From: Sinosporangium siamense
Lineage (GTDB): Bacteria > Actinomycetota > Actinomycetes > Streptosporangiales > Streptosporangiaceae
DNA length: 64,000 nt
Direction of reading: 5' to 3'
Assembly (NCBI RefSeq): GCF_016863435.1
Contig: NZ_BOOW01000002.1
Location: forward strand, 1-64,000
Notes under the pieces: generated by a model
The model's database searches: none
What the model was told of the DNA's origin: nothing
What the model saw: only the letters and a program-made list of their open reading frames with translations
Part shown: positions 40,532 to 59,879 of the stretch, piece after piece
Numbering within the stretch: position 1 is the first letter of the stretch
How the letters are laid out: each line of letters opens with the position of its first letter
Translations under genes and position numbers: made by a program

Positions 40532-41743
40532 ATGGCGGCGGGAAGCAGCGGGAACAGCATGGAGATGGAGCGACGTCCTGGCGTGCCCAGGCTGCTGAGG
40601 GAGATCAACGACAGGTCCGCTCTGGACCTGCTGCTCGCCTCGGGGCCGCTCACGCGTGGGCAGATCGGCGAGATGACGGGCCTGTCCAAGGTCACCGCAT
40701 CCCAGACGCTGGCGCGTCTGGAGGAGCGCGGCCTGGTCGAGGTGGTCGGTGAGCAGGGTGGTGGGCGCGGCCCCAACGCGGCACTCTATGCCATCGTTTC
40801 GTCTTCCGCTTATGTCGCGGGGCTAGACGTCGGTCCTGAGCTGGTGACGACCGCGATCGCCGACATCAACGGCGAGGTCGTGGCGGAGCTGACGGTCTCG
40901 CCGGGCAACCACGAGGACCCGGTGGCGGTCGTGCACAGTGCCGTGGTCAAGGCCTGCCGTTCGGCCAAGGTGGCGCTGTCGCGGCTGCGCGGCGTCGTGA
41001 TCGGCACCCCCGGTGTAGTCGACCCCCGCTCGGGTGACGTGCGGTTCTCCTTCGACCTGCCCGGATGGCACGAGGGCATTCACGAGGCCCTCGCGCGCGA
41101 CCTGCGCCGCGAGGTCCGCATCGAAAACGACGTCAATCTCGCCGCCGTCGCCGAGCGCGCCGCCGGCGTCGCGCAGGACGCCGACGACTTCGTGCTGGTG
41201 TGGGTGGGGCGCGGACTCGGTCTCGCCGTCATGCTCGGCGGGCGCCTGCATCGGGGCCGTTCGGGCAGCGCGGGCGAGATCGGCTACCTGCCCGTGCCCG
41301 GCGTGCCGCTCGCGGAGGACATCAGGTCGCTGCCCGGCCGCCTGCCCTCGCTCGCGGGTGGCCTGCAGTCGCTGGTCAGCGTCGAGGCGGTGACAGAGCT
41401 GGCGGAGACATACGGTTTCACCGGTTCGAGCAAGGCCGAGTGTGTGGCCGCGGCGGTGGACGCCGGGCCGGAGGGTGAGCCGCTCCTCGACGAGGTGGCC
41501 GCGCGGCTGGCGCTCGGTGTCGCCTCGGTGTGCGTCGTGCTGGACCCCGGCCTCGTGGTGCTCGGCGGAGAGGTGAGCAGAGCCGGGGGCAGCGCCCTGG
41601 CCACACGTGTCGAGGAGGCCGTGGCCAGGATCTGCCCGATTCGTCCTCAAGTAGTGACCAGCGCGGTGGAGGGCAATCCGGTGTTGCGGGGCGCGGTGCT
41701 GGCCGCGCTCAACCACGCCCGCGAGGAGGTCTTCGCCTCCTGA
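40532..41743 (+). CDS. ROK family transcriptional repressor 1
   Basis: This 403-residue protein has an N-terminal winged helix (LLREINDRSALDLLLASGPLTRGQIGEMTGLSKVTASQTLARLEERGLV) and a C-terminal ROK sugar-kinase-fold domain (VIGTPGVVDPRSGDVRFSFDL, RIENDVNLAAVAERAAG, GSAGEIGYLPVPG). The zinc motif CXCGXXGCXE of ROK kinases is missing, which suggests a pure sensor-regulator. It is strongly similar to the second ROK protein at 48653. ATG 40532 is used; in-frame ATGs at 40559 and 40565 are possible. The stand-alone condensation gene follows in the same direction 250 bp later. Confidence 0.92.
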   Translation: MAAGSSGNSMEMERRPGVPRLLREINDRSALDLLLASGPLTRGQIGEMTGLSKVTASQTLARLEERGLVEVVGEQGGGRGPNAALYAIVSSSAYVAGLDVGPELVTTAIADINGEVVAELTVSPGNHEDPVAVVHSAVVKACRSAKVALSRLRGVVIGTPGVVDPRSGDVRFSFDLPGWHEGIHEALARDLRREVRIENDVNLAAVAERAAGVAQDADDFVLVWVGRGLGLAVMLGGRLHRGRSGSAGEIGYLPVPGVPLAEDIRSLPGRLPSLAGGLQSLVSVEAVTELAETYGFTGSSKAECVAAAVDAGPEGEPLLDEVAARLALGVASVCVVLDPGLVVLGGEVSRAGGSALATRVEEAVARICPIRPQVVTSAVEGNPVLRGAVLAALNHAREEVFAS

Positions 41744-41907
41744 CGGAGGCGCCGAGTGAGCCGGCGGGCGGTTTGGGAGGCCGATGTCCCCCCAAGTCAC
41801 CCCCCGGACAAGCTCGGTGGTGTCGCCAAGATCACTGTGGCGTTCGCCGAGTTGGAGCCCCACCCATCTTGTGCCTGCCCGGCCAGCCTGTGTACTATCG
41901 GCGCCAA

Positions 41908-41931
41908 TTGACAGGAAACTTTCCTTACTAT
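41908..41931 (+). promoter_or_regulatory. Promoter with ROK operator copy 2 (condensation gene)
   Basis: TTGACA (41908-41913) overlaps the perfect 13-bp palindrome AGGAAACTTTCCT (41913-41925), followed directly by TACTAT. The palindrome has the same GAAA-C-TTTC core as the site before ROK gene 2. A repressor bound there would cover the promoter spacer. It lies about 70 bp upstream of ATG 41995. Confidence 0.55.
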
Positions 41932-41994
41932 GTGCCGGGCAGGCGGGCGCACGACGTGGTGCGCCTATCGTCTTCGACGAGAAAAGACCACGTC

Positions 41995-43347
41995 ATGTCG
42001 AACTCGTTCGTAGATTCGTTTGTGCGTGAGTTGCCACTTTCGCACGGCCAGGAACGGATCTGGCTACACCACCAAGTGACCCCGGCCGGAGCTCTCCACG
42101 CCCGTGCCGCCTACAACATGGTCGTCGCCGAGCAGCTCAGCGGCCCCCTCGACATCCCCGCGCTGCGCCGCGCCCTGGACGAGATCGTGGCCAGGCACGA
42201 GATCCTCCGTACGGTGTTCACCACATCGGCCGGGCGCCCCGTCCAGCGGGTGCGCGCGAGGGGGACGGCGGCGCTGGAGGTGCTCGACCTCGGCCAGGAG
42301 CCCGGCACCAGGGTGCGGGAGGTGGTCGAGGAGCGCGCGAACCGCGTGTTCGATCTCACCTCGGGGCCACTGTTCCGGGCCACCCTGCTCCGCCTCGCCG
42401 AGCGCGAACATGTGCTCTGCCTGGTGATGCACCACATCGTGGGGGACGCCTGGTCGCTCTCCCGGGTGCTGCTGGGCGAGCTCGCCGCGCTCTATGCGGC
42501 CTTCGCCGCCGGCCTGCCCTCCCCGCTGCCTCCGCTCACCCGGCAATACGGGGACTACGTACGGCTGCGCCGTGCCGAGCGTATCCCGGGCGAGCAGCTC
42601 GCCTACTGGGCCAAAACCCTCGCGGGGGTGCCGTCACTCGATATGTCGGCCGATCCGCCGTCCCGTGCCGTACCGCGCAGCACGAGCGGCCTGGTGATCC
42701 ACTGCTCGCCCGGAGAACTCCACGAGTGTGTGGCCCTGCTCGCCAGGCGTATACGCTGCACGCCGTTCATGCTCTACATGGCGGCTTATGCCGTACTGCT
42801 CTCGCGTTACACCGGTCAGCAGGACTTCTGTGTCGGCACCTCGGTCGCGGGGCGTGCCGAGGAGGAGTTCGAGCCGCTGATCGGCATGTTCGTGAACACG
42901 CTGGCGCTGCGTGCCGACCTGTCCGGCGATCCGCCTTTCCTGGAGTTCCTCCGCAGGGTGCGGCGGGTCGCGCTCGGCGGGTTCGCGCACGCGGAGGTGC
43001 CCTACGAGCTGGTGGACGCCGTCTTGCAGGAGGAACGCGGTGGAAAGCCGCTGATCTCCACGATGTTCCTCTTCAACGGCCCTCCGGCGCCGGGTCTCAG
43101 CTTCGGCGGCCTGGAGACCAGCCCGGTGATCTCCGGGCTCGCGCCGGCGACCTTCGACCTCACGCTTGAGGTGATGAGGTTGCAGGGGCATCTGCGGATC
43201 ATGTTCACCTACGACGCGGAGGTGGTGTCGCGGGTGGCGGTCAAACGGATGGCGTCACATCTGGAACGCCTGCTCTGGTCGGTGATCGCCGACCCCGAGG
43301 CCCGCGTGTCCCGGCTCACCATGCTCCCGCAGTGGGATTTCTGGTGA
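41995..43347 (+). CDS. Stand-alone NRPS condensation domain protein
   Basis: This 450-residue free condensation domain has the motifs LPLSHGQERIWLHHQ (C1), ARHEILRTVF (C2), MHHIVGDAWS (C3, H146-H147...D151), the C4 region GTSVAGR and IGMFVNTLALR (C5). The last C3 Gly is Ala (HHIVGDA), while the catalytic second His and the Asp are kept. It resembles LCL-type domains. No A or carrier domain is attached, so it must act in trans on carrier-bound intermediates, perhaps from the cluster 8 kb to the right. There is no clear ribosome binding site before the ATG (GAGAAAAGA only). Confidence 0.88.
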   Translation: MSNSFVDSFVRELPLSHGQERIWLHHQVTPAGALHARAAYNMVVAEQLSGPLDIPALRRALDEIVARHEILRTVFTTSAGRPVQRVRARGTAALEVLDLGQEPGTRVREVVEERANRVFDLTSGPLFRATLLRLAEREHVLCLVMHHIVGDAWSLSRVLLGELAALYAAFAAGLPSPLPPLTRQYGDYVRLRRAERIPGEQLAYWAKTLAGVPSLDMSADPPSRAVPRSTSGLVIHCSPGELHECVALLARRIRCTPFMLYMAAYAVLLSRYTGQQDFCVGTSVAGRAEEEFEPLIGMFVNTLALRADLSGDPPFLEFLRRVRRVALGGFAHAEVPYELVDAVLQEERGGKPLISTMFLFNGPPAPGLSFGGLETSPVISGLAPATFDLTLEVMRLQGHLRIMFTYDAEVVSRVAVKRMASHLERLLWSVIADPEARVSRLTMLPQWDFW

Positions 43348-43511
43348 CTCCCGTGCGCTGCTAGGGCGGCGCCTGCCGGGCCGTCGGGGGCCGCTCTACA
43401 CGATGGTGTCCCATGCGGCCGCACCCTGTGGTGAGTGCCCTGGCCCGCGCCCGCGGGCAATACACCCTTGCTGCCCGGTGGCGTGGCCGCCGGCTCCGCC
43501 GGAAGCGGCGC

Positions 43512-43557
43512 GGAGGACAGTGGCGGAGGACAGTGGCGGAGGACAGTGGCGGATGAC
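43512..43557. repeat. 13-bp tandem repeat, three exact copies plus a partial
   Basis: GGAGGACAGTGGC is repeated exactly at 43512, 43525 and 43538, with a partial diverged fourth unit (GGATGAC). It lies between the condensation gene and the terminator, so it is non-coding. Confidence 0.9.
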
Positions 43558-43559
43558 AT

Positions 43560-43595
43560 GAGGAAGGCCCCCGTCGCGCGCCGGGGGCCTTCCTC
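43560..43595. terminator. Bidirectional terminator
   Basis: A perfect 14-bp stem (GAGGAAGGCCCCCG / CGGGGGCCTTCCTC) with an 8-nt loop lies between the convergent condensation and hexosaminidase genes. Confidence 0.8.
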
Positions 43596-43626
43596 AGTGC
43601 CTGTTCATCGGGGTCGCCGATGTCGC

Positions 43627-45081
43627 CTAAACGTTGAGTAGCTCGGCGGCGGCTTGGGCGTTGGCCCTGGCTGCGCCGTAGGTCGCGATGTAGGCCGCGG
43701 CCTCGGGCCGCCAGATCGGCAGGCCCATCTCCACGACCGTCGCGTCGGACCTGGCCGCGAGCAGCCCGGTCACCAGTTCCCGGCTCTCGGGGTACCGGTG
43801 CGCGTCCTTCACCACGATGATCAGCGACCGGCCCACGGCACGCTCAAGCAGGACCCTGCGGTCCACCTCGGCCGGCTTGACCCGGATGATCTCCGCCTGC
43901 GGGAGCCACGGGGAGAAGCCCCACGGCACGTCGCCGACCGCGATCGTGGGAGGTGTGTCGAGCTCGACCACGAGCGGCTCCACCAGCGGCCGGGTCGCGC
44001 CGGTGAGGCTGACCGCCCGGCGGGCGGCGTCGAGACCGATGATGGTCTCCTCCGCGGCCTCGCGCTGCGACTCGCCGAACCACGCGCGCAGCTTCGCGGT
44101 GTGCTCGGCGGCCTCCTCCAGCCGCGACAGCGGCAGCCTGCCCTCGTTCACGGCGTCGACGACGGCCGCGATGACCTCCCGCACCTCCTGCTCGGTCGGC
44201 AGCGGGCCCAGGCACAGCAGGTCGGAACCCGCCGCGAGGGACAGTGCCGCGCCGCCGCCGAGACCCACGCTCTTGGTGATGGCGTGCATGTCGAGGGCGT
44301 CGGTGATGATCACACCGTCGTAGCCGAGCTCACCCCTGAGGAGCTCGGTCAGCGCGGAGTGGGAGAGGGTCGCCGGCGCCTCGCCCGTGACGACGGGCAC
44401 CCGGACGTGGGCGGTCATGATCGACTTGGTGCCGGCCTCGATCGCGGCGCGGAACGGCGCGAGCTCGCGGGCGTGCAGCGTGGCGAGGTCCACGTCGACG
44501 ACAGGGATCTCCAGATGGGAGTCCTGCTGGGTCGCACCGTGGCCGGGGAAGTGCTTGACGCAGGCCGCGACGCCCACCTCCTGCAGGCCGTGGACGGCTG
44601 CGACGGTGTGCCTTGCGACTAGGTCGGGCTCGTTGCCGAAGGCCCGGGTGCCGATCACCGGGTTGTCGTCGGCACTGTTGACGTCGGCGCTCGGCGCCAT
44701 GTCGAGGTTGACTCCGCAGCGCACCAGGTCGTCGCCGATCGAACGGTAGACCCTGCGGGTCAGTTCGACGTCGTCGACCGCTCCGAGCGCGGCGTTGCCC
44801 GGGTAGGGACTGCCGATGTGATAGGCGAGCCGGGTGACGTCGCCGCCCTCCTCGTCGAGGGAGACGACGAGTTCGCCGGACTCCCGCAGACGTCCGGTGA
44901 GCGCGGCAAGCTGACCGGAGTCCTCCACGTTGAAGCCGAAGAGGGTGACGCCACCGAGGCCGTTCTCAAGGTCCCGCAGGACCCAGTCGGGTGCGGTGGT
45001 TCCTTGGAAGGCCACGAGCAGGGTGCCGGCCACGAGACGATGCAGGCTGCGATCGCCGGGACTCGGGTGAAACTCAGCCAT
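43627..45081 (-). CDS. Glycoside hydrolase family 3 beta-N-acetylhexosaminidase
   Basis: This 484-residue GH3 enzyme has the NagZ-type motif KHFPGHGATQQDSH (His/Asp general acid-base dyad) near residue 175 and the nucleophile Asp in GVIITDALDMHAI near 260. EEGGDVTRL and DMAPSADVNS are also family features. There is no signal peptide, so it is cytoplasmic. It probably releases GlcNAc from imported chitobiose-like or muropeptide sugars. It is the last gene of the leftward ABC operon, 150 bp after the second permease. Confidence 0.9.
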   Translation of the reverse strand: MAEFHPSPGDRSLHRLVAGTLLVAFQGTTAPDWVLRDLENGLGGVTLFGFNVEDSGQLAALTGRLRESGELVVSLDEEGGDVTRLAYHIGSPYPGNAALGAVDDVELTRRVYRSIGDDLVRCGVNLDMAPSADVNSADDNPVIGTRAFGNEPDLVARHTVAAVHGLQEVGVAACVKHFPGHGATQQDSHLEIPVVDVDLATLHARELAPFRAAIEAGTKSIMTAHVRVPVVTGEAPATLSHSALTELLRGELGYDGVIITDALDMHAITKSVGLGGGAALSLAAGSDLLCLGPLPTEQEVREVIAAVVDAVNEGRLPLSRLEEAAEHTAKLRAWFGESQREAAEETIIGLDAARRAVSLTGATRPLVEPLVVELDTPPTIAVGDVPWGFSPWLPQAEIIRVKPAEVDRRVLLERAVGRSLIIVVKDAHRYPESRELVTGLLAARSDATVVEMGLPIWRPEAAAYIATYGAARANAQAAAELLNV

Positions 45082-45233: not shown

Positions 45234-46085
45234 TCAGCCCTTGACGGCGCCGGCGACGAGGCCGGACACCATGCGGCGCTGGACCATCAGGAAGAACAGG
45301 ACGACCGGGATCGTCATCAGGGTCGAAGAGGCCATGATGGCGCCCCAGTCGGTTCCCCTCTGGCCGAAGAAGAAGCGCAGTGCCACGGGCATCGTGTAGC
45401 CCGAGGACTCGGGCATCAACGTCAACGCGAAGATCAGCTCGTTCCACGCGGTGATGAAGGAGAAGATGCTGGTGGCGACCAGCCCGGGGGCGACCAGGGG
45501 GAACAGCACCTTCCAGAAGGTGCGGAACCTGCTCGCGCCGTCGATCCACGCGGCCTCCTCCAGTTCCTTGGGCACGGCGGCCACGAAGGTGCGCAGCATC
45601 CAGATGCCGAAGGGCAGGGTGAGCGCGACGTTGACCACGACCAGACCGAGAAGCTGGCCATAGAGACCGGCACCCCTGATCATGAGGAACAGCGAGATCA
45701 GCAGGGCCTCGGCCGGCACCATCTGCATGATGAGCAGCACGATCATCAGCGGCGTGCGCCCCTTGAACCGGAACCGCGACACCGCCGTGGCCGCGAGCAG
45801 GGCGACCACCGAGCCGATCAGCACGGTGCCGAGCGCCACGAACACGCTGTTGCCCATGTACACCCAGATCGAGTTGCCCGCCACACCGTCGGTGAAGACC
45901 TGCGTGACGTGCTCGAGGGTGGGCTGCCTGGGGAACAGGATGAAGTCGGTGGTGAAGATCTCGTCGTTCGGCTTGAAGGCCGTCGCGACCATCCAGTACA
46001 CGGGGAAGACCGCGAACAGGAAGACGACGATGGCTGTGCCGTTCAGCGCGATCGAGCCAAGGCGCTTGCGTGTGGTGGGTTTCAT
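45234..46085 (-). CDS. Carbohydrate ABC transporter permease (MalG type)
   Basis: This 283-residue inner-membrane permease has about six helices and the EAA loop EEAAWIDGASRFRTFWKVLFPLVAPGL that docks to the ATPase. ATG 46085 overlaps the stop of the first permease (ATGA). It belongs to an amino-sugar uptake system. No ATP-binding gene is present here; actinobacteria often use a shared ATPase such as MsiK encoded elsewhere. Confidence 0.92.
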   Translation of the reverse strand: MKPTTRKRLGSIALNGTAIVVFLFAVFPVYWMVATAFKPNDEIFTTDFILFPRQPTLEHVTQVFTDGVAGNSIWVYMGNSVFVALGTVLIGSVVALLAATAVSRFRFKGRTPLMIVLLIMQMVPAEALLISLFLMIRGAGLYGQLLGLVVVNVALTLPFGIWMLRTFVAAVPKELEEAAWIDGASRFRTFWKVLFPLVAPGLVATSIFSFITAWNELIFALTLMPESSGYTMPVALRFFFGQRGTDWGAIMASSTLMTIPVVLFFLMVQRRMVSGLVAGAVKG

Positions 46086-47098
46086 TTGATGTCGCCCTCC
46101 GTCCTGACCATCTGGCGGACGTGGATGAACGTGATGACGAGCAGGATCAACGTCAGCACGACCGCGATCGCCGCACCCGTGCCCATCTTGGGCGGGGGAT
46201 TGAACGCCTCGCTCCACGCGAACAGGGAGAGGTTGTAAGCCTCCCGGTTCGTCGGTCCGGCCAGGATGAGAAGCTGGGCCAGCACCTTGAAGTCCCAGAT
46301 GATCGACAAGATCGTCAAGACCGCGAAGACCGGCTTGAGCAGGGGGAAGGTGACCTTCCTGAAGGTGTGCCACGGGGTCGAGCCGTCGACCCGCGCCGCC
46401 TCGTAAAGCTCACTGGGGATGCTCTTGAGGCCGGCCAGCACCGAGACCGCGATGAAGGGGAAGGACGCCCACAACACGCAGAGGATCAGGATCATGTAGA
46501 TGCTGACGGGATCGTTGAGCCATGGTTGCCCGGTCCAGTCGGCCCGGCCGAACAGCGCGTTCGACAGGCCGTCGGGCACCAGATTCAACGCCCAGTTGAT
46601 GATGCCCGCGTCGGCGTCGAAGAGCCAGCGCCAGATGATCGCGGCGGAGACCGGGGGAACAGCCCAAGCCGCCATCAGACCGACGATCAGGACCTTGGAC
46701 ATCACCTTGCCCAGCTTCTGCAGGAGCAGACCCACAGCCGTGCCGAGCACGAGCGTGAGGGTCACGGTGACGGCCGCGAACACCACGGTGTTGCGGAGCG
46801 AGGTCCAGAAAAGATCGTTTTCGAAGATCCTCTGGTAGTTGTCGAAGCCCACCCACTCGGCGGGGCGCGTGCCGCGAACCTGCGGCAGCCCCAGCTTTTG
46901 GAAGGACATGAAGACGACCTGGACCAGCGGCCACAACAACAGGCCCGCGATCACCAGGATACCGGGCAGCAGTAGGGCGTACGGAATGAGCCACGGCGGC
47001 ATGCCGCTGCCCTTCTGACGCCCGTGAGGGGTGCGGTGCCGCGCAGGGGCGGAGGGCTTGCCGCCTCCGCCCCGCGCGATTGTCGGTGATTGGGTCAT
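46082..47098 (-). CDS. Carbohydrate ABC transporter permease (MalF type)
   Basis: This 338-residue permease has a Ser/Gly/Lys-rich cytoplasmic start, six or more helices and the EAA motif YEAARVDGSTPWHTFRKVTFPLLKP. It pairs with the downstream MalG-type subunit by a 4-nt overlap and follows the solute-binding protein gene by 2 bp. The substrate is predicted from context to be a GlcNAc-containing oligosaccharide. Confidence 0.92.
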   Translation of the reverse strand: MTQSPTIARGGGGKPSAPARHRTPHGRQKGSGMPPWLIPYALLLPGILVIAGLLLWPLVQVVFMSFQKLGLPQVRGTRPAEWVGFDNYQRIFENDLFWTSLRNTVVFAAVTVTLTLVLGTAVGLLLQKLGKVMSKVLIVGLMAAWAVPPVSAAIIWRWLFDADAGIINWALNLVPDGLSNALFGRADWTGQPWLNDPVSIYMILILCVLWASFPFIAVSVLAGLKSIPSELYEAARVDGSTPWHTFRKVTFPLLKPVFAVLTILSIIWDFKVLAQLLILAGPTNREAYNLSLFAWSEAFNPPPKMGTGAAIAVVLTLILLVITFIHVRQMVRTEGDIK

Positions 47099-47100
47099 GA

Positions 47101-48438
47101 CTACTGGTTAAGGATCTCTTCGATTTCCTTGTTGGCGTCGGCGAGGGCGGTGTCGACGTCCTTCTTGCCCTCGATCACCGCGCGCCCGGCATTCTGGAGC
47201 ACGGCCTTGGTCTCGTTGGCCTCGGTCCAGTTGGAGTCGGCGGGGAACGCCTTCGCCTGAGCGAAGCTCTTGGCGAAGACCTCCTGCTTGGGGTCGCTCT
47301 CAAGCTTGGCCAGTTCGTCGGCGTAGACCGGGAGGAAGCCGCCCTCCAAGGCGTACTTCGTGCCCCACTCCTTGCCGCCGGCGAGCTTCAAGTACTCAGC
47401 GGCCAGCGCCTCGTTCTTGGTGTCGTTCCACATCGCGATGTCGTTGCCGCCGAGGAAGCTCGGAGCCGGACCGCTGCCGTCCTTCTTCGGGAGGGAGAAG
47501 AAGGCGAGGTTGTCCTCCTTCACCTTGCCCTTGCTCTCCTCCTTGATGGTGGCGATGTCCCACGCGGCGGTGAGGTACATGCCGACCTTGCTGTTGGAGA
47601 AGCGGACGCGGATGTCGGTGGTGTTCTGCCCGAGGCGGGACTTGCTGGACACGCCGTGCTTGGCGACGAGGTCCGTGTAGAACTGGAAGCCTTCCTTGAA
47701 GGCGGGCTCGGTCACCTTGCCGACCCACTTGCCGCCCTCGGAGACCGCGTAGTCGCCGCCGAGGGACCACGCCAGCGAGCCGAGCAGGTGGTTGGCGTCG
47801 GTGCCGCCGTTGAAGGCGAAGCCGTCGACGTCCTTGCCCTTCTTGTCCTGGATCTTCTTGGCGGCCGCGATCAGCTCGTCCCAGGTCTTGGGCACTGCGA
47901 TCTTGAGCTCGTCGAACCAGTCCTTGCGGTAGAGGACCGCGCGGGTGCCGCCGCCCCACGGAACGGCATAGATCTCGCCGTCGATGGTCTCCAGGCCACG
48001 GAGGTTCTCCGGGATCTGGCTGAGGTCGGGGCTGGCCTTGAAGACGTCGGTGATCGGCTTCAGGGCGTCCTGGCTCTGCCAGATCGGGACCTGGTCGTTG
48101 CCGATCTCGGTGACGTCCGGTCCGGCGCCACCTGCCGCCGCGGCGGTGAACTTGTCGTTCACTGCGGGCCACGGGATCCACTCGACCTTGACGCTGGCGC
48201 CGGTCACTTCTTTGAACTTGGCGTCCAGCTCAGTCTGATATTTCTGCACAACGTCATTGGGGTCGCCAAGACGCCAGACGGTCAGGGTCTGACCAGCGAA
48301 ATTGGGGCCACCTGCAGACTGGGAGGCACCGGTGTTCGGCGACTCCTGCGCGGTGGGTTCACTGCTGCCACAGGCGGCGAGGCCCAGGGCCAAGGCGGCG
48401 GTCGTGGCCGTAGTGGCCGCGATCTTCGCAATCCTCAC
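47101..48438 (-). CDS. Extracellular sugar-binding lipoprotein of ABC transporter
   Basis: This 445-residue family 1 solute-binding protein has the signal MRIAKIAATTATTAALALG and lipobox LAACGSS, so it is anchored at the outer face of the membrane. Body motifs such as GPDVTEIGNDQVPIWQSQDALKPI and AVPWGGGTRAVLYRKDWFDEL are typical of oligosaccharide binders. It is first in the leftward operon and divergent from ROK gene 2, whose operator lies between them. Confidence 0.92.
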   Translation of the reverse strand: MRIAKIAATTATTAALALGLAACGSSEPTAQESPNTGASQSAGGPNFAGQTLTVWRLGDPNDVVQKYQTELDAKFKEVTGASVKVEWIPWPAVNDKFTAAAAGGAGPDVTEIGNDQVPIWQSQDALKPITDVFKASPDLSQIPENLRGLETIDGEIYAVPWGGGTRAVLYRKDWFDELKIAVPKTWDELIAAAKKIQDKKGKDVDGFAFNGGTDANHLLGSLAWSLGGDYAVSEGGKWVGKVTEPAFKEGFQFYTDLVAKHGVSSKSRLGQNTTDIRVRFSNSKVGMYLTAAWDIATIKEESKGKVKEDNLAFFSLPKKDGSGPAPSFLGGNDIAMWNDTKNEALAAEYLKLAGGKEWGTKYALEGGFLPVYADELAKLESDPKQEVFAKSFAQAKAFPADSNWTEANETKAVLQNAGRAVIEGKKDVDTALADANKEIEEILNQ

Positions 48439-48595: not shown

Positions 48596-48608
48596 AAGAA
48601 ACTTTCTT
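48596..48608. promoter_or_regulatory. ROK operator copy 3 (between ROK gene 2 and the ABC operon)
   Basis: AAGAAACTTTCTT is a perfect palindrome (AAGAAA-C-TTTCTT) in the 214-bp divergent promoter region. TTGACT at 48576-48581 could be a -35 for the ROK gene. The position allows joint control of the regulator and the transport operon. Confidence 0.6.
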
Positions 48609-48652: not shown

Positions 48653-49828
48653 TTGTCCCGACGACCGGGTACGCCCCGGCTGCTGCGCCAGCTCAACGAT
48701 CGGGCTGCGCTGGAGCTCCTCCTCTCGATCGGCCCCTTGACCAGGGCCGAACTGGGGGAGCGCACTGGGCTCTCTAAAGTAACCGCCGGTCAACTGTTGT
48801 CCAGACTCGAAGAGCGGGGTCTGGTCGGAGTCGTGGGGGAGCAGGCCGGCGGCCGAGGTCCCAACGCGGCCCTTTATGGGGTGGTTCCCTCCTGTGCTTA
48901 TGTGGCCGGGCTGGAGGTGCTGCCAGACAGCGTCACAGCTGCTGTGGCAGACATCACAGGTAAAATAGTCGCAGAAGTGATGGTAGACCCCACATCTCAC
49001 CACGACCCGGTAAAGATTGTGCATCGATCGGTGCAACGGGCATGTGAATCCGCGGACGTCACGATGTCGCAACTGCGGTCGTTCGTGATCGGCACGCGGG
49101 GTGTGGTCGATCCTCGCTCGGGCGATGTCCGCTTCTCCTTCGACCTGCCCGCCTGGCACGAAGGTGTGCTCGCCGACCTGCGAACCAGCCTGAAGGCATC
49201 CGTCCGCATAGAGAACGACGTCAACCTGGCCGCCATGGCCGAACGCTCGTACGGCGCCGCCGTCGCCGCCGAGGACTTCGTGCTCGTGTGGGCCGGCGTC
49301 GGCCAGGGCCTCGGCGTCATGCTCGGCGGCCGGCTCCACCGGGGGCTCACCGGAGGCGCCGGCGAGATCGGCTGGCTGCCCGTGCCGGGTGAGCCGCTAC
49401 CGGTCAACGTGCGCGCGCCGCAGTCGGGCTCCTTCCAGCGCCTGGTGGGCAGCGAGGCCATCGCCGGGCTGGCCGAGCTCCACGGACTCACGGCGGAGAT
49501 CACCGACTCCGTCGAACGCCTGGTCCGCAACGCCGTCGACCGGGGCGCCACCGCGTTCCTCAACGACCTGGCGGACCGGCTCGCGGTCGGCGTCGCCGCC
49601 GTCGCGGTCGTGCTCGATCCCGGGCTGATCGTCCTCAGCGGCGACATCGGCAGGGCGGGCGGTCCCGCGCTGGCCGCCCGGGTCGAGGAGGCCGTCGCGC
49701 GAGTCTGCCCGAGCCAGCCGCGGGTCGTCGTCACCGAGGTGACCGGCAACCCGGTGCTGCGAGGGGCGGTCATGGCGGCCGTCGAGCAGGCGAGAGAGGA
49801 GTTGTTCGACCGAACGGTCGGTCCCTGA
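48653..49828 (+). CDS. ROK family transcriptional repressor 2
   Basis: This 391-residue paralogue of the protein at 40532 shares its architecture and long identical stretches (RLEERGLV, GGRGPNAALY, VVDPRSGDVRFSFDLP, IENDVNLAA, AGEIG). An N-terminal winged helix is followed by a ROK fold without the Cys zinc motif. The TTG start is preceded by AGAGGGG. As a local regulator it most likely senses GlcNAc or a derivative and represses the divergent ABC/hexosaminidase operon; the ligand is inferred from context only. Confidence 0.92.
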   Translation: MSRRPGTPRLLRQLNDRAALELLLSIGPLTRAELGERTGLSKVTAGQLLSRLEERGLVGVVGEQAGGRGPNAALYGVVPSCAYVAGLEVLPDSVTAAVADITGKIVAEVMVDPTSHHDPVKIVHRSVQRACESADVTMSQLRSFVIGTRGVVDPRSGDVRFSFDLPAWHEGVLADLRTSLKASVRIENDVNLAAMAERSYGAAVAAEDFVLVWAGVGQGLGVMLGGRLHRGLTGGAGEIGWLPVPGEPLPVNVRAPQSGSFQRLVGSEAIAGLAELHGLTAEITDSVERLVRNAVDRGATAFLNDLADRLAVGVAAVAVVLDPGLIVLSGDIGRAGGPALAARVEEAVARVCPSQPRVVVTEVTGNPVLRGAVMAAVEQAREELFDRTVGP

Positions 49829-49939: not shown

Positions 49940-50584
49940 ATGCATGATGTCGTCCTGATCTCCGACCCCCGAGTCACATCCATCCCCGTGGAGGAGAGCG
50001 GCGAGCCGCTGGGCGACGCACGAGGCAGGCTGCGGCTGTCCTCACTCCTCGCCGACCCCGAGGGTGCATACGCCCACCTGCGCGAAGGGGTGCTCACCCG
50101 GCTGGAGGAGGCCGAGCGTCTCCTGCCCGCGGGTTATGCCCTTTTGATGGTCGAGGGCTACCGTCCGCCCGTGCTGCAGCGGCGCTACTTCGACAAATAC
50201 TCCGGCGAGCTCCGCGCGGCCTTCCCCGAGATGTCCCCGGAAGAGGTCCACGTCGCCGCGAGCCGCTACGTCTCGCCCATCGAGGTCGCCCCGCACACCG
50301 CCGGCGCCGCCGTCGACCTGACCCTCTGCTACGAGGACGGCACCGAGCTCGACATGGGCACCGAGATCAACGCGAACCCCGAGCAGAGCGACGGCGCCTG
50401 CTACACCGCCGCCCCCGGCATCGGCGACGAGGCCCGCCACCACCGCGACATCCTGTCGGCCGCTCTGACGGAGGCGGGCCTCGTCAACTACCCCACCGAG
50501 TGGTGGCACTGGTCCTTCGGCGACCGCTACTGGGCCATGGCCACCGGGGCGAAGGCCGCGATCTACGGCCCCCACACTCCCTGA
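49940..50584 (+). CDS. M15 family D-Ala-D-Ala dipeptidase, VanX-like
   Basis: This 214-residue zinc peptidase of family M15D has VEGYRPPVLQ (Arg for transition-state binding), HTAGAAVDL (zinc His and Asp; the usual SxHxxGxAxD has Ala-Pro before His here) and EWWHW (catalytic Glu and zinc His). Members cleave D-Ala-D-Ala, either for glycopeptide resistance with VanHA or for cell-wall amino-acid recycling. No VanH or VanA homologues are nearby, so recycling is more likely. The 3' end overlaps the convergent gene by 22 bp. Confidence 0.88.
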   Translation: MHDVVLISDPRVTSIPVEESGEPLGDARGRLRLSSLLADPEGAYAHLREGVLTRLEEAERLLPAGYALLMVEGYRPPVLQRRYFDKYSGELRAAFPEMSPEEVHVAASRYVSPIEVAPHTAGAAVDLTLCYEDGTELDMGTEINANPEQSDGACYTAAPGIGDEARHHRDILSAALTEAGLVNYPTEWWHWSFGDRYWAMATGAKAAIYGPHTP

Positions 50585-52527
50585 CCCGCGGTGGCCGGCT
50601 GCTCGTGCCGCCGCCGCGCGGCCGACTCGGGCGTCGCGGGCGGTACGTTGACCCACTGCAGGCCGTGCGCTCCCGCCACGATCAGCAGCCCCGCGTGCGC
50701 GACCATCGCCGTGACCCCGGGCGGCACCGCGCACGGCGGCTCCTGCCACTCGGCCGGCCCGGCGATCGGCAGCCGCGTGCGCAGCACACCGCGCTCGTCG
50801 AGCGCGTAGATCCGCCCGTTCATGCCGCTGAGCATCTGCGCGCCACCCGCCGATCCCACCTCGCGCCATGGCCGCCCTGCGGCGAGCTCCGGCATGGTGA
50901 TGTGCCAGAGCCGGTCCGGCCGGGTGGCGGCGAAGAACGCCCCGTCGCCGCAGGCGAGGGCGACCGTCCCCGGCGGCACGGCGCCGACGCCGGTCCACGG
51001 GGCGTCGTGCGGGCTGGGAGCCCGGTAGCACAACCTGCCGTCCGCGGTGGCCGCGTAGAGGCCGAGCCCAAGTCCGGCGGCCGCCTCACGGGGCACGTCC
51101 ATGCAGAGCACACCGGGGGCCGGGCCGACCGGGGCCCAGCCGAGGTTCTGCCCGCACAACTCGCGCGCGACCAGGTCACCGGTATGGCTCACGCCGTACA
51201 TGAGTCTGCCGTGCACGGTGAGGGCGGTTATGTCGGCGGGGCGGCCGATGACCTCCCAGCGTCCGGGGACGGGTGGCGCCGACAGGCGGTCGATCACGTT
51301 GCGCGTGATGCGCTCCACGACCGGGTCGTGCAGGGTGTTGCCCCAGTTGACGGTGGCGGCGTTGAAGACCGTGCCCGCGCCGAGCCGGAAGACGCCCATG
51401 GTGGCCATGCCGCCCTGCCCGAAGGCGCTCCAATGCCGCAGATCGGCGGTCGCGAGCACCACGAACGACGGTGAGGTGCCGTCCCGGCAGGTCACCCGCG
51501 GCACGCCCTGGATCTCCTCGAACTCCGCCGCGTCGGTCTCATAGCCCAGGCAGCCCCTGCCGAAGTCGTCGCCGTCGGCCAGGCCGGTGCCCTCGAACAC
51601 CCAGTGGCCGGCGAACCGCACCCGGTAGGACTCCTCGCGCATGAGCTTCATGTACGGTCCCCAGGTGCCGGCGCCCTGACGGAAGCTCACACCCGTGAGG
51701 GTGTTCTCCGGCCTGCCCACCGAGGGGCTCGACCACTCGGCGGTCACCAGCCGCGGATCGGGCTCGGGGTCGGCCGCCGGGTCGCGGTAGCACACCATGA
51801 CCTGCCGGTCGTCCTCCAGGCGGATCTGCCACCAGGCGGTGTTGCCGGACAGGATCGCGACGTTGCCGCCGCGCCGGGCGAACTCCTCCACCGCGTCGCG
51901 CATGCCCGCCGACCAATACTCGTCGTGGCCGTTGACGATCAGCAGGCGGTAGGACGACAGCAGGTCGAGCCCCTCGTGCAGGTCGAGGCATGAGCAGAAC
52001 TCCACCTCGTAGCCCGCGGGGCGCAGCCACCGCAGCAGCCCCTCCTCCCAGCGCTCGGGTGGCGGCCCGCCGCCCGGCCGGGCGAACTCCACCCGGAACG
52101 CCCGGGCCGGCTGCTCGCTCCAGTAGACGCTCTGGCCGGGCTCGCCCGCGCGGTTGTACGCCTCCCACGTGGTGAACGGGATGGACACCAGGATCGGGGA
52201 AGCCGAGCCGGGCACGGCCTGCCGTACGACGAAATAGACCTCGTTGTCCGGCCCCGGCCCCTCGCCCGGCAGGGCCAGCTCACGCGGCCAGGGCAGATTC
52301 TCGTCGGACATGCCGGGCAGGAGGAACCGCGCGCGGTACAACGAACTCGGCCAGTCGAGCGGCACGTCGAGCGCCCACTCGCCGCCGCCGACCTCGGCCG
52401 TGAGCACCCGGCGGTCGTCGGTCGCGTCGGCCACGCTCACCCGCACCGGGCCGGGGGCCTCGACCCTGAAGGTCAGCGTCTCCCCCTGGGCGACCGAGGT
52501 GGACAGACACCACGCCCGCACACTCAT
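50563..52527 (-). CDS. N,N-dimethylformamidase large-subunit-like protein with propeller-like C-terminus
   Basis: This 654-residue protein is the last gene of the leftward biosynthetic operon. Its central part matches the N,N-dimethylformamidase beta-subunit-like domain: FTTWEAYNRAGEPGQSVYW near 118-136 and LLIVNGHDEYWSAGMRDAV near 195-213, then GGNVAILSGNTAWWQIR. The last 200 residues hold repeated WxxVG/YAATxDGRL units like a tectonin-type beta-propeller. The dimethylformamidase domain carries a mononuclear iron site in the characterised enzyme; whether it hydrolyses an amide here is unknown. The ATG overlaps the condensation gene stop. Confidence 0.75.
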   Translation of the reverse strand: MSVRAWCLSTSVAQGETLTFRVEAPGPVRVSVADATDDRRVLTAEVGGGEWALDVPLDWPSSLYRARFLLPGMSDENLPWPRELALPGEGPGPDNEVYFVVRQAVPGSASPILVSIPFTTWEAYNRAGEPGQSVYWSEQPARAFRVEFARPGGGPPPERWEEGLLRWLRPAGYEVEFCSCLDLHEGLDLLSSYRLLIVNGHDEYWSAGMRDAVEEFARRGGNVAILSGNTAWWQIRLEDDRQVMVCYRDPAADPEPDPRLVTAEWSSPSVGRPENTLTGVSFRQGAGTWGPYMKLMREESYRVRFAGHWVFEGTGLADGDDFGRGCLGYETDAAEFEEIQGVPRVTCRDGTSPSFVVLATADLRHWSAFGQGGMATMGVFRLGAGTVFNAATVNWGNTLHDPVVERITRNVIDRLSAPPVPGRWEVIGRPADITALTVHGRLMYGVSHTGDLVARELCGQNLGWAPVGPAPGVLCMDVPREAAAGLGLGLYAATADGRLCYRAPSPHDAPWTGVGAVPPGTVALACGDGAFFAATRPDRLWHITMPELAAGRPWREVGSAGGAQMLSGMNGRIYALDERGVLRTRLPIAGPAEWQEPPCAVPPGVTAMVAHAGLLIVAGAHGLQWVNVPPATPESAARRRHEQPATAGQGVWGP

Positions 52528-53894
52528 CCGGCCCTCCGCAGTGCACTCACCGCGGAACCGTCACCGAAGGCCGCCTCCATCAGGAACATCTCCAAGCCGC
52601 TCAACCAGCGCTCCATCGCCTCCTTAGGGACGTAACGGGTGTCGGCGGTCAGCGACAGCGCCAGCGCGCCGCCCTCGCCGCTCACGTGCACACAGAAACG
52701 GCAGTTGAGCTGCTCCTGGCTCAGCGGCCACGCCAGCGTCGAACGCGTCAGCGCGTCCCGCACCTCGGCCGCGTCGCTCAGCTCCGCGGGGGGATCGGCG
52801 AAACGCATGTCGTTGAAGCAGCAGTACGGACGGACCTGCTCGCCCCGCGCCTCGCTCGCCCGCGCCGTGGCCGCGGCCCGCCCGGCCGGATCGTGGAATC
52901 CGTACCGGTAGGCGCGCAGCAGAGCGGGTTTGGCCGTCGTGAGCAGGCCGGCCATGGTGAGGCGGCCGCCGTCCGTCACGTCGAGCGTGAACAGGCTCTC
53001 CTGGGAGAGCGTGGTGACCGCCGCGCGGGTGTCGGCGCGGAAGCGGTTGCCGACGATGGGCAGCATCGCGCACCTCGACAGCCCCGTCAGCGCGCTCGTC
53101 ATCGCGCAGGCGCCGACCAGCAGCACCGCGCCGGCCGAGGTGCTGTAGCGGGCCGCCGCGTGCCGGGCCGCGGCCTCGGCGGCGTGCGAGGTGAGGACGG
53201 CGCGCCAGATCGGCGGTCCCTCCACCTCGGCGGCGGGCGCCGGGAACATCGACGCCGGCACCCGCAGGAACTCGCCTTCCCAGTAGTCCTCGGCCGCCTG
53301 CGCGACCCGGCGTCCCTGCTCCGACTCCTGCCAGAGCGCGAGTTCCAGCGGCGTGGCTGGGAGCGTTCCCGCCACTCGTCCCTTGATGAGCAGCAGCCGC
53401 AGATCGCGCAGGACGATCTCCGCGCCCAGCCCGTCCACCGCCATGTGGCAGTAGACCAGCACCAAGTGGGTGACCACGCCCGACGGCGAGGTGACCAGGC
53501 CGGCCCGCAGCGGCCACTCGGCCGCGTAGTCGAACCGGCGGCGTTTGAGACGTTCCAATAGTTCGGTGGCCGTCTTGGTGCCCTCACCCGGTTCGGCGGT
53601 CACGATCTCCGCCGTGAGCTCCCCGCGCCCGTGAACCACCTGCCCGCGACCCTCGGGGGTCGTGGTCCGCAACGCCGGATGCCGCTCGACGAGGCCGCTC
53701 ACCGCGGCGGCGGCGCTCTGCGGGGTCAGCGGCCATGCGGCGCGCGGCACGGCGAGCACGTGGCCGAAGTTGAAGTAGTGGTCGTCCGGGGCGGTCGCCT
53801 CGACCGTCTCCCAGATCGCCCGCTGGCCCCAGGTGAGCGGACCGCGGCCTTCGCCGCCGCCCTCGAAGGCGACCCGGATGGCCTGCGGGTTCAC
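52524..53894 (-). CDS. Free-standing condensation-like domain protein
   Basis: This 456-residue condensation/acyltransferase-fold protein reads CHMAVDG (C149, H150, D154, G155) at the active site, so the first His of HHxxxDG is Cys while the catalytic second His stays. The N-terminal half keeps PLTWGQRAIWETV (C1-like) and RHPALRTT (C2-like); the C-terminal half is poorly conserved with typical peptide-forming C domains. It may transfer an acyl group to a small acceptor. GTG 53894 overlaps the stop of the carrier gene by 4 nt, which implies joint action with that carrier. Confidence 0.8.
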   Translation of the reverse strand: MNPQAIRVAFEGGGEGRGPLTWGQRAIWETVEATAPDDHYFNFGHVLAVPRAAWPLTPQSAAAAVSGLVERHPALRTTTPEGRGQVVHGRGELTAEIVTAEPGEGTKTATELLERLKRRRFDYAAEWPLRAGLVTSPSGVVTHLVLVYCHMAVDGLGAEIVLRDLRLLLIKGRVAGTLPATPLELALWQESEQGRRVAQAAEDYWEGEFLRVPASMFPAPAAEVEGPPIWRAVLTSHAAEAAARHAAARYSTSAGAVLLVGACAMTSALTGLSRCAMLPIVGNRFRADTRAAVTTLSQESLFTLDVTDGGRLTMAGLLTTAKPALLRAYRYGFHDPAGRAAATARASEARGEQVRPYCCFNDMRFADPPAELSDAAEVRDALTRSTLAWPLSQEQLNCRFCVHVSGEGGALALSLTADTRYVPKEAMERWLSGLEMFLMEAAFGDGSAVSALRRAG

Positions 53895-54136
53895 CGCTTC
53901 GATTCCACGAACGCGGCGAGGGCGGCGACGCTTTCGAGATGGGAGACGTCGGTGCCGAGGTCCACCTCCACTCCGTATTCGCGTTCGAGGGCGTCGATGA
54001 GCCGCATCTGCGCCAATGAGGTCACGCCGAGCGCGGGCAGCGGCACCGAGGCCGACAGCGCCTCGTCGGGGGTGACGGCGCCGTCCGACGCCTCCGACAC
54101 GAGTTGGGCCACGTGCTCGTTGAGGGATCTGTTCAT
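53891..54136 (-). CDS. Free-standing acyl/peptidyl carrier protein
   Basis: This 81-residue carrier protein has the phosphopantetheine site LGVTSLAQMRLIDALE (Ser40). The fold pattern (LNEHVAQLV..., YGVEVDLGTDVSHLESVAALAAFV) is that of a PCP/ACP. It is expressed between the NRPS and the free condensation protein, 70 bp after the NRPS stop. The loaded substrate is unknown; loading could come from the acyl ligase at 59880 or the NRPS A domain. Confidence 0.88.
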   Translation of the reverse strand: MNRSLNEHVAQLVSEASDGAVTPDEALSASVPLPALGVTSLAQMRLIDALEREYGVEVDLGTDVSHLESVAALAAFVESKR

Positions 54137-54205
54137 GAGTGGTCCTGCCGATCCTGAACTGTGAAAATGGGTGTCGCCTGGGCGGCCCGCGAGGGAGCCG
54201 TCCCC

Positions 54206-57200
54206 TTACGCGCGTCCTTCGTGCGCGCTCGTATGGTTGTGTTGGGCCTCGTGCTGCGGGGCGCTTTTGTCCTTGCGGGCGCGGATGCCGAGCAGGTCGT
54301 CCGGCGTCGCGTCCGGCACGGTGGCGTCGAACCCGGCCAGCACCCGGTTGCGCAGCGCCAGCCCCACCAGCACGGCGATCAGCACCCCGAACACGATGTA
54401 CATGAGCGCGATGCCGCGCCCGGGACCGGTGCCGACGACCGCGCCGACGGTGTCCGCGAGCGCGCCGCCGGGGGCCATCATCGGCTCAAGCACCCGCTCG
54501 CCGAACGGTGCGACCAACCCGACCCCGAGCGGAATGGTCGACCAGGCCACCATCTGGTTCAGCGCGAACACACGCCCGTGGAACCGCTGCGGCACCTTCA
54601 TCTGGATGATCGTCGCGTAGACGCCGTTGACCAATGCCAGCCCCGCCGACACCCCGAAGGCGCCGATGCAGATGGTCACCAGGTCCTGGCGCATGCCCAC
54701 AAGCGCGCACGACCCGGCGATCACGAGCGTCAGCAGCAGCATCCCGGTCATACGCCGCTCACGGGGCCCGCCCCACAACGTCATCACGAGCCCGCCGAAG
54801 GCCGCGCCGAGCCCGCCGCACAACGCGACGTATCCCATCTCGGTGATGGTCGCGAACGACAACACCAGCGGCGAGTAGAGCAGGAAGATGGGCGACATCA
54901 GCAGGGCGAGCACCGCGAAGAAGCCCACCATGGAGCGGAAGTGCCGCTGTCCGATGGACAGCTTGAAGCCCGCCGCGATCTCCCGTCCCACCGACTCACG
55001 CCTGCGATGGGCGAGGGTCGCCGGGAAGACCGTGAGGGCGAGTACGGCGAGCGCGAAGACATAGCCCGCGATGTCGGCCAGCAGGATGCCCTTCAGCCCG
55101 ATCACCGACATGAGCCCGACCGCGATCAGCGGGGCGATGAACTGCGCGACGCCCGTGGTCATCTGGGCCACGCCGTTCGCGTGACCGAGGTAGCGCTTGG
55201 GCACGAGCTGCGGGATCGCCGAGGTGAAGGCGACCCGCTGGAAGGTCAGCGCCACCGACAGCGCGGTCAGCAGGATGTAGAGGTGCCAGACCTCGAGCCG
55301 GTCCGCCCACAGGAGCGCGGCGGTCGCCGCCTGCACGAGCAGCCCCGCGGCCGTCCCCGCCGTCATCACCGCGCGGCGGCTCGACCGGTCGACGATCGCG
55401 CCCACCAGGGGCGCCGCCAGCACGCCAGGCATCAGCGCGAGCACGTTGAGCAGGGCCATCTGGGCGAGTTCGCCGGTCTGCATATAGACCCAGATCGGGA
55501 TGGCGAACTCGGTGAGCGTCGCGCCGAGGATCGTGACCATCTGCCCGAGGGCGACGGTCAGGAACCGGCCGAGGGTCGGCTCCGGCGCGGCCCGTTCCCG
55601 TGGGGCCTGGGTGGGGCCGGCCTGGTGGCCGGAGACGCCTTCAAGCGCCCAGCCCTCACCGCGCACCGTGTCACGGGGGGTTTCGTCCCGGAGGGCGGGG
55701 TGGACGGCGGTGACGATCGCCGCCAGCTCCTCCGCCCGAAATTTCAGGAAGTAGTGGCCGGCCTCGTCGATCACCGCCAAGGCCGTCGTCCCAGTCAGGA
55801 AATGCCACTCCTTGTAGCGTTCCTCGTAATACTCAGTGGTCGGGTCCTCCCCGCCCACCACCGACACCATCGCCGCCCGCAGCGGTTCGGCCCGCGAGTC
55901 GAGCAACCCGGTGAAATACTCCTCCGCCTGCCGCGCGTCGTGGCGCATGTTGCGCAGGATGAAGTCCTTCTGCTCGTCGCTCAGCTCGCCGAGGTCGGCC
56001 CCGAGCGAGGTCAGCCAGCCGAGCTGCGCCCGCGTACTGCGAAGCCGGTCGTTGTCCGCCACCTTCGCCCACAGGCCGAGGAAGCCCTTGGTGGGCCGGG
56101 CGAACGGGAAGATGCCCCCGAGGTAGACCGCCTCCAGTTCACGCCCCTCGGCCTCCAGCAGCCGGGCCACCGCGACCGCCAGCGCGCCGCCGACGCCGCA
56201 GTGCCCGTAGATCGCCAGCGGGCCCTCCACGGTCGCGAGGATCTCCCTGGCGCACTGCTCGGCCACCTCGGCCAGCGGGCGCGGGTCCTCGGCCAGGCCG
56301 AGGTCGTGGCCCGGCACCGCGACCGCGTGCAACGCGACGCCGGGCGGCAGCGCGTCGGCCAAGGGCTGGTAGACGACGGCGCTGCCTCCGCCGTACGGCA
56401 GGCACACGAGGCTGAGCGAGGTCGGGCCCGGCCGGGTGAGGCGGTAGAGCAGGCCCCGCTCCCCGCCGTCGCCGGCCTGGGCGAGGCGGGCGAGGCCGCG
56501 CACGGTGGGGTGCTGGAAGAGGTCCATCACGCTGACGGGCGTGCCGTCCTCGGGCAACTCGCGGCGGAGCCGCGCGACGACGCGGGTGGCGAGCAGCGAG
56601 TGGCCGCCGAGGTCGAAGAAGTCGTCCAGGGCTCCCACCACGGGCAGATCGAGCACATCGGCCCACACGGCGGCGATGATCTCCTCCACCGGCCCCGAGG
56701 GGGGTTCCACGTCGCCCTCGTCGGGGCGGCCCGCCTCAGGCTCGGGCAGGGCGGCGCGGTCGACCTTGCCGTGTGACTTGAGCGGCAGCTCGGGCAGCCA
56801 CACGTAGCGGGTCGGCACCATGTACTCGGGCAGGCGTTCCGCGAGCGCGGCGCGCAGTTCGCCCACGCTCATCCGGTCGCCCTCGGCGACCAGATAGGCC
56901 ACGAGGTCCAGCGACCCCGGCTTGCCCCGCGCATCGACCACCGCCTGGGCGATGCCCGGGAGCAGGCGCAGGGCCTCGTCGATCTCGCCGAGCTCGACCC
57001 GATAGCCGCGGATCTTGACCTGGAGGTCGCGCCGCCCGAGGAAGACGAGGTCGCCGCCGGCCGACCAGCGGGCCAGGTCGCCCGTGCGGTAGACACGTTC
57101 GCCGTCGATCTCGACGAATCGCTCGGCGGTCAGCTCCGGGCGCCCGAGATATTCCCTGGCGAGCCGGTCGCCGCCGATGCACAGCTCGCCCGCGACGCCG

Positions 57201-59635: not shown

Positions 59636-59662
59636 GTTAAGGGAAGCACCCCCAACTGGAAG

Positions 59663-59682
59663 GATTCTTTCTGGAAAGAATC
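59663..59682. promoter_or_regulatory. Cluster operator copy 1 (NRPS side)
   Basis: GATTCTTTC-TG-GAAAGAATC is a perfect inverted repeat with 9-bp arms, ending 28 bp before the NRPS start codon. Its reverse complement matches copy 2 at 16 of 20 positions. Confidence 0.6.
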
Positions 59683-59829
59683 TTTGCTATTCCCGAGTGG
59701 CCGCCAGTCTCCCATGATCACGAGTGCAGGCACAATACCCCCTTGCATCTCGGGTCTTCATCTCCCGATAGGGGCTCTTGCGCCTACTTCGATCGACGTG
59801 TCACACTGGCGCCGCCGGACAACTGTTAA

Positions 59830-59849
59830 GAATCTTTCCGGAAACAAGC
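59830..59849. promoter_or_regulatory. Cluster operator copy 2 (ligase side)
   Basis: GAATCTTTC-CG-GAAACAAGC keeps the TTTC-CG-GAAA core of copy 1, with a weaker right arm. It ends 30 bp before ATG 59880, the mirror position of copy 1. Confidence 0.55.
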
Positions 59850-59879
59850 TTTCCAATTCTGATTCGTGCGGGAGTCAGG

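Follow-up and report, generated by a model that had tools for sequence, protein, structure and literature searches.

An Orphan Condensation Domain in an Amino-Sugar Locus of Sinosporangium siamense: A Probable In-Place Relic of a Lost CsnR-Boxed NRPS Cluster

Gene Content of the Locus

The window, i.e., the whole stretch of 64,000 nt of Sinosporangium siamense contig NZ_BOOW01000002.1 that was analyzed, carries a gene for a free-standing condensation (C) domain, the orphan, within a sugar-utilization locus (Table 1). A ROK-family regulator is encoded to its left, and a GH3 protein, two permeases and a solute-binding protein (SBP) to its right, in agreement with the flanks given in an earlier, sequence-only reading of this DNA. 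The best NCBIfam match of the GH3 protein is the beta-N-acetylhexosaminidase PRK05337, at 175.8 bits and below the cut-off of that model (207). Since the GH3 gene is on the opposite strand, the orphan is not a member of the GH3 operon. The interval between the ROK and GH3 genes is called the slot in the following. The genus comprises two genomes, and in the other one (G004) the slot is empty (218 bp) and the C domains are only distantly related to the orphan (best E 2.5e-66, 37%).

An apparently intact NRPS cluster (cluster B) begins 7–11 kb beyond the orphan, with gene starts at 50563 (DMFA2-like), 52524 (C-like) and 54206 (C-A-T-TE-MFS). No A or T domains are found between the orphan and this cluster. 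Together with positions 464–1927 of the next 20 kb (L055), cluster B combines NRPS genes with genes for a 2-oxoacid dehydrogenase E1, a lipoyl-domain E2 and a DMFA2-like protein, and the E1/E2 and DMFA2-like set may constitute an unusual starter supply.

Between the SBP gene and a divergently oriented second ROK gene (48653–49828) is the motif AAGAAACTTTCTT (48596–48608), a variant with two changes of the operator described below. The variant is also conserved at L060 17156, L119 17380 and L067 799, and is likely to be an operator of the SBP/second ROK pair.

Table 1. Features of the orphan locus, with positions in the window.
Feature	Position	Strand	Basis or remark
ROK-family regulator, left boundary of slot	40532–41743	+	Pfam ROK, 126.8 bits; 97% identical in congener G004
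TGTGTACTAT, extended -10-like element	41889–41898	+	Reading of sequence only; most relatives have TGTGTAGCAT at this position
AGGAAACTTTCCT, palindrome, exact core of published CsnR-box	41913–41925		Sequence match
Orphan C domain	41995–43347	+	Probably the N-terminal domain left over from a C-A-T-reductase NRPS
Core motif 3, HHIVGDA (residues 146–152)	42430–42450	+	Translation of orphan
Frameshifted remnant, 3' end of the last gene of cluster A (FAD-binding monooxygenase)	43358–43468	+	nhmmer, tblastn, local alignment
GH3 beta-N-acetylhexosaminidase-type gene, right boundary of slot	43627–45081	-	Pfam GH3, 226 bits
Sugar ABC transporter genes (two permeases, solute-binding protein)	45234–48438	-	Pfam BPD_transp_1 twice, SBP_bac_1
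NRPS cluster B, apparently intact (DMFA2-like, C-like, C-A-T-TE-MFS, A, C-T, E1)	50563–63839		Pfam; not the source of the orphan

Motif and Predicted Fold of the Orphan

The 450 aa product of the orphan ORF matches Condensation (PF00668) as its sole Pfam family, with 288.4 bits against a cut-off of 30.6, and the match covers profile positions 4–449 of 456. The third core motif reads MHHIVGDAWS, in which His-His-Asp of HHxxxD is kept and the final Gly is replaced by Ala; the alanine pointed out in the sequence-only reading is real. We take the motif context to be LCL-like. An AlphaFold2 model has a mean pLDDT of 87, with values below 50 only at residues 1–5, 221–228 and 446–450, and among solved C domains it is best matched by that of Txo2 (6p1j; Z 42.7, 428 residues, rmsd 2.9), which also came first when solved structures were searched with the orphan sequence (E 1.2e-70). 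PDB 4znm, another structure matched by the sequence, is presumably SgcC5. The predicted model and its whole-domain match to 6p1j display the two-lobed C-domain fold which, along with the uninterrupted ORF and the near end-to-end profile match, bears out the description of a complete free C domain. A, T and reductase domains are absent in cis, and the ORF ends at the C-A linker: the orphan is a remnant, not an NRPS.

Relatives Occupy the Same Slot Within a Larger NRPS

When the orphan was compared with 297 genomes of the family, its best matches (48–54% identity) lay within frames of ~1380–1600 aa, and searches of the same 297 genomes with the ROK and GH3 proteins placed these best C-domain relatives between the two. 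Among 341 family genomes, 17 had a match at E ≤ 1e-99, a threshold that weaker free C domains could escape; at this level the orphan was the sole free C domain, and all other matching frames were >1100 aa.

The relatives belong to a gene cluster, here termed cluster A, that was read from 20 kb around them. In one genus it consists of GH3'-NRPS-MFS-FAD monooxygenase, and in another it additionally includes a 424 aa protein of unknown type, a PIG-L deacetylase and a C-like/carrier protein. The NRPS has the order C-A-T-NAD_binding_4, i.e., it has a reductase end, and the orphan-type C domain comes first. Fifteen such A-type loci were found in 14 genomes. The slot ROK gene adjoins 12 of them (G217, G070, G188, G227, G222, G141, G245, G168, G283 contig 8, G099, G178 and G312), and it was not seen in the DNA read at the other three (G299, G308 and G283 contig 6). 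At 11 of the 12 ROK-adjacent loci the GH3 gene is on the far side, that of G188 being cut by the contig end and G312 not having been read as far as the GH3 side. On the question of whether related genomes keep the gene with the sugar locus or with the NRPS cluster, the homologous domain is beside the slot ROK gene at 12 of the 15 loci, inside the cluster A NRPS.

Reductase-ending NRPS clusters with GH3', PIG-L and MFS genes, located behind CsnR-boxes (see below) and mostly in the amino-sugar locus, were seen at L056–L065, L068 and L161–L163. In one genus, a divergent second C-like protein is encoded beyond the slot ROK gene (L056 1492–3261; likewise L057–L059, L062, L068, L164 and L165). The slot ROK matches in G094, G248 and G263 each have one TAA inside the matched stretch.

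The Alanine Is Shared by the A-Type Clade

A C-domain phylogeny had been suggested in the sequence-only reading for assigning a type to the orphan. The tree comprised 50 rows (the orphan itself, 15 C domains of the same genome, 33 of relatives and one of a named locus) without typed reference C domains, and it placed the orphan as sister to 12 A-type C domains (support 99/97), which themselves form a single group (100/99). HHxxxDA occurs in all 15 A-type C domains (the 12 in the tree and those of three later loci) and in none of the 37 other rows of the tree, which carry DG, DL or DE. Because all A-type C domains carry DA, the alanine is inherited and compatible with functional-looking in-line NRPSs, and it marks the clade rather than a defect. 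The same motif has been reported for the C domain of zeamine Zmn16 (PMC3547906). Cluster B was considered as the source of the orphan and rejected, as its C domains are of the DG type and outside the clade of the orphan.

A CsnR-Box Precedes the Orphan and the A-Type Clusters

The palindrome AGGAAACTTTCCT ends 69 bp before the ATG of the orphan, and is the only match without mismatch of AGGAAANTTTCCT in the window. This core is identical to the CsnR site published for Streptomyces lividans (PMC4856308). The CsnR-box is the operator of chitosanase genes, which are repressed by the ROK-family protein CsnR (PMC3048496, PMC6097792), and in Streptosporangium roseum such boxes are reported for 15 genes, including chitinase genes (PMC6097792). 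The motif AGGAAANTTTCCT precedes all 15 A-type loci (12 exactly, three with one mismatch), either at the head of the NRPS gene or at that of the C-like gene preceding it. Most of these loci have TGTGTAGCAT or TGTATAGCAT ~20 bp further upstream of the box, where the window has TGTGTACTAT; a generic promoter scan of 41500–43700 found none. There are 12 copies of the box in this genome and 7–12 in each of four others, compared to 0–1 of a reversed control. In this genome, 10 proteins near seven of the 12 sites were scanned, and GH3, two GH18, SBP and ROK genes and an NRPS cluster were found close to box sites. The box in front of the orphan would presumably be bound by the slot ROK or by some ROK protein. 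With the box at this position and the same slot occupied in relatives, the tie of the orphan to the amino-sugar locus is not due to chance, and the sequence-only reading was right to connect the two.

Further to the left, there is no clear match. Beyond the box and the -10-like element, the best score of the flank against cluster A DNA was 48 (shuffle maximum 44), and no remnants of PIG-L, GH3', C-like or 424 aa genes were found above noise in the left flank of the orphan. The missing match at this end counts against the orphan being a relic of cluster A.

A Remnant of the FAD Monooxygenase Gene Follows the Orphan

In cluster A, the last gene encodes an FAD-binding monooxygenase, and a tblastn comparison of the DNA behind the orphan stop codon aligned LPGRRGPLYTMVSHAAAPCGE with FPDRWVPLYTMISHTTTPYAD, and another frame gave ALARARGQ. 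Local alignment of this stub scored 74–107 for 10 of 11 relatives (shuffles at most 53); the eleventh, L068, was at noise level and the end of its FAD gene was not located. An nhmmer profile of 10 FAD gene ends, run over the window, the adjoining 20 kb (L055) and the slot of the congener (L118), gave the stub as the best hit (E = 1.1e-8; next 0.0086). The stub carries a frameshift and is changed at 6 of 20 invariant columns, as against 0–2 of 20–22 in the 10 intact genes. It is only 111 bp long, which counts against the relic reading, and none was found in 15 other slots tested. Since the match of the orphan to the C domain of relatives stops at about residue 445, the junction should lie within ~43333–43357.

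Probable Loss of Cluster A In Place

Five lines of evidence agree, namely the sister clade, HHxxxDA, the ROK-adjacent slot, the CsnR-box and the FAD stub, which argues that one or more deletions took out the DNA from the adenylation domain onwards until shortly before the FAD gene ends. The orphan is best explained, with a probability of roughly 0.88, as an in-place relic of a CsnR-box-controlled cluster A that was lost between the ROK gene and the GH3/ABC operon, and a gene-cluster fossil is a better account of it than a new kind of enzyme. From the computed homology, slot, operator, remnant and intact frame, we infer the deletion history, the regulation and the loss of function as follows. 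In an ancestor, the interval flanked by the ROK gene and the GH3/ABC operon would have been occupied by a cluster A under a CsnR-box, with GH3', optionally PIG-L and C-like/carrier genes, a C-A-T-reductase NRPS, an MFS exporter and the FAD monooxygenase. Going by the families involved, the C domain of the full enzyme would condense an acyl or peptidyl donor from upstream with the amino acid loaded on the following carrier, with product release by the reductase. The deletion or deletions probably extended from the NRPS C-A linker to ~200 bp before the stop codon of the FAD gene, and would have left behind the promoter, the operator, the first domain as a 450 aa ORF with a stop a few codons past the junction, and the frameshifted FAD stub. 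As A and T are missing in cis, the orphan is unable to carry out its ancestral reaction; its transcription probably continues under the control of a CsnR-like ROK repressor, and the ancestral product is most likely no longer made.

Among the 341 genomes, no second one has the same deletion, which counts against the relic reading, and the event therefore rests on one assembly. Alternatively, a full NRPS at this site may have been collapsed by an assembly error: the genome is a draft of 84 contigs, and NRPS repeats are a known source of misassembly. This is scarcely credible, as the site is inside a 164 kb contig, the stub is frameshifted and diverged, and there is no A-type reductase NRPS elsewhere in the genome. 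Equally improbable is a free C domain inserted by transfer or rearrangement, unrelated to any earlier cluster in the slot. The empty slot of the congener and the only 48–54% identity to the best relatives would suit an insertion, but the slot, the motif and the position of the operator are the same as in cluster A, and the box in front with the stub behind makes it unlikely.

The sequence-only reading had also envisaged an enzyme condensing an acyl group with an amino-sugar-related amine. More generally, the orphan could form amides on a free amine, amino sugar or other, in the manner of OaaC, a free-standing C domain for fatty-acid amides. Ala follows the catalytic Asp in 36% of the C domains of that family (PMC13142362); the orphan is likewise free-standing, is located among amino-sugar genes and has an operator of the chitosan type. 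However, no acyl carrier gene adjoins it, its nearest relatives are the first domains of in-line C-A-T-reductase NRPSs, and the FAD stub lies directly behind it. Given that those in-line domains share the same Ala, the residue does not mark free-amine chemistry here, and we consider such an enzyme very unlikely and the original suggestion unsupported.

Erosion of the Slot in Other Genomes

Eighteen further slots were read, picked non-randomly by the distance between ROK and GH3. In G195 and G201, GH3' and a C-like ORF are left and the NRPS is gone; in G207 a lone C-like ORF is left, again without the NRPS. The slot of G212 has a 151-residue GH3' match, and GH3' is kept in G120, G094 and G058, the last with other genes too. 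Nine slots hold other genes, and those of G004 and G059 are empty. The box is found at the C-like ORFs of G195, G201 (with one mismatch) and G207, and its exact core is absent from the other 15 slots. The C-like ORFs of G195 and G207, two species, are cut inside the carrier domain and have an identical tail. For this pair the NG86 dN/dS is 0.56 over 418 codons, compared to 0.35–0.39 for three pairs that include an intact C-like gene; pairs with the G070 row, which had been translated in a wrong frame, are left out.

The C-like ORFs of these three genomes, at L106 (G195), L113 (G207) and L108 (G201), are free-standing and truncated, behind the same CsnR-box.

Possible Retention of the Orphan

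The orphan ORF has no stops or frameshifts, its GC3 (0.87) equals that of the neighboring ROK gene, its branch length in the 50-row tree is similar to those of its sister C domains, and codon-position counts revealed no excess of first- or second-position changes. Neither its frame nor its fold nor its substitution pattern resembles that of an old pseudogene, and the intact ORF counts against the relic reading. In a neutral-decay simulation, 0.10–0.15 changes per site reduced the chance of an open frame of 450 codons to 0.05–0.01; the age of the cut is not independently fixed, and this result is only suggestive. On the other hand, the orphan deviates at 5 of the 45 columns on which the other 23 rows agree, the highest count of the 24 (others 0–4), and at 16 of the 74 that do not vary among 12 outgroups (7–14 for A-type domains). 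These changed columns, the lack of anything in cis to partner with and the congener without the gene speak against a living orphan.

Candidate partners for any action of the orphan in trans are the carriers of cluster B and those of a cluster on contig C53 of the same genome. On C53 (L152, G000:C53:10000-26000), a box at L152 2089–2101 is 84 bp before an A gene, followed by C-A-T, C-like, FAD monooxygenase, C-A-T-reductase and MFS genes. The FAD monooxygenase is 59% and the C-A-T-reductase 46% identical to those of cluster A, and C53 is read as a second CsnR-boxed NRPS cluster and putative paralogue of the lost one. The remainder of cluster A was not found elsewhere in this genome, the best full-length NRPS relative being that of C53 (47%), and a search of the genome with the first gene of the larger cluster A form gave an empty answer that is itself low in information.

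The alternative that shares the same origin is that the truncated orphan was kept for work in trans with a cluster B or C53 carrier. Its ORF, catalytic HHxxxD, predicted fold, promoter-like element and operator are intact, and the FAD stub, frameshifted and with 6 of 20 columns changed, seems to have degenerated further than the C domain (5 of 45). The FAD gene may, however, already have been decaying when the NRPS was cut, in which case the intact C-domain ORF would merely be young. In the slot of G283 (L063/L120), an A-type NRPS is accompanied by A, C-T, E1, C-like and DMFA2 genes of the cluster B type, and an NRPS of that type was not found in this slot region, so components of both clusters can belong to one pathway; a DMFA2-like gene is also located beside cluster A in G312 (L162). 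But a homologous cluster B occurs in G059 with an empty slot, which indicates that cluster B is independent of the orphan and runs without a C domain in the slot. The truncated C-like ORF that persists with the same end in G195 and G207 offers a precedent for retention, except that its dN/dS of 0.56 is above the values of the pairs including the intact gene, i.e., relaxed. On balance, retention for trans work is unlikely. The earlier proposal that the orphan serves the nearby cluster in trans is not supported as a dedicated role. Some residual activity in trans may persist, but most likely the orphan is a relic that no longer yields the ancestral product.

A bolder form of this idea is doubtful: that truncation turned an NRPS into a free-standing condensation enzyme regulated by chitosan and selected for trans work with C53 or cluster B, and that similar promoter-proximal survivors arose separately in G195, G201 and G207. 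If true, domain loss from NRPSs would be a recurrent route to free-standing C domains.

Taken as a relic, the orphan provides an example of an NRPS cluster lost in place, in which both ends of the lost segment are still recognizable. It also draws attention to a family of reductase-ending NRPSs that, in these actinomycetes, is situated in the amino-sugar locus behind CsnR-boxes. Given this position, cluster A is predicted to yield its products during growth on chitosan or glucosamine oligomers. No description of an NRPS as part of the CsnR-box regulon was found within the literature searched.

Comparison with Known Systems

The orphan shares its clade, HHxxxDA, slot and upstream box with the C domains of cluster A; it differs from them in that the A, T and reductase domains and the partner genes are gone, and it branches off before the 12 A-type domains of the tree. 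With the teixobactin synthetase C domain of Txo2 (6p1j) it has in common the full-length profile match, the whole fold and HHxxxD, whereas its motif 3 ends in Ala, not Gly, and it has no attached A or T domain. The box has the exact AGGAAACTTTCCT core of the CsnR regulon and is also found before GH3, GH18, SBP and ROK genes in this genome, but unlike in that regulon it precedes an NRPS domain.

As a separate protein the orphan resembles OaaC and Zmn19 of zeamine (PMC3547906), as well as the free-standing SgcC5 (PMC10212144). Ala at its position is frequent among the OaaC relatives, and the orphan shares with the OaaC type its existence as a protein of its own and the Ser/Ala that follows the catalytic Asp. 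Partners are known or have been proposed for OaaC and Zmn19, whereas the free state of the orphan most probably arose by deletion from a larger synthetase.
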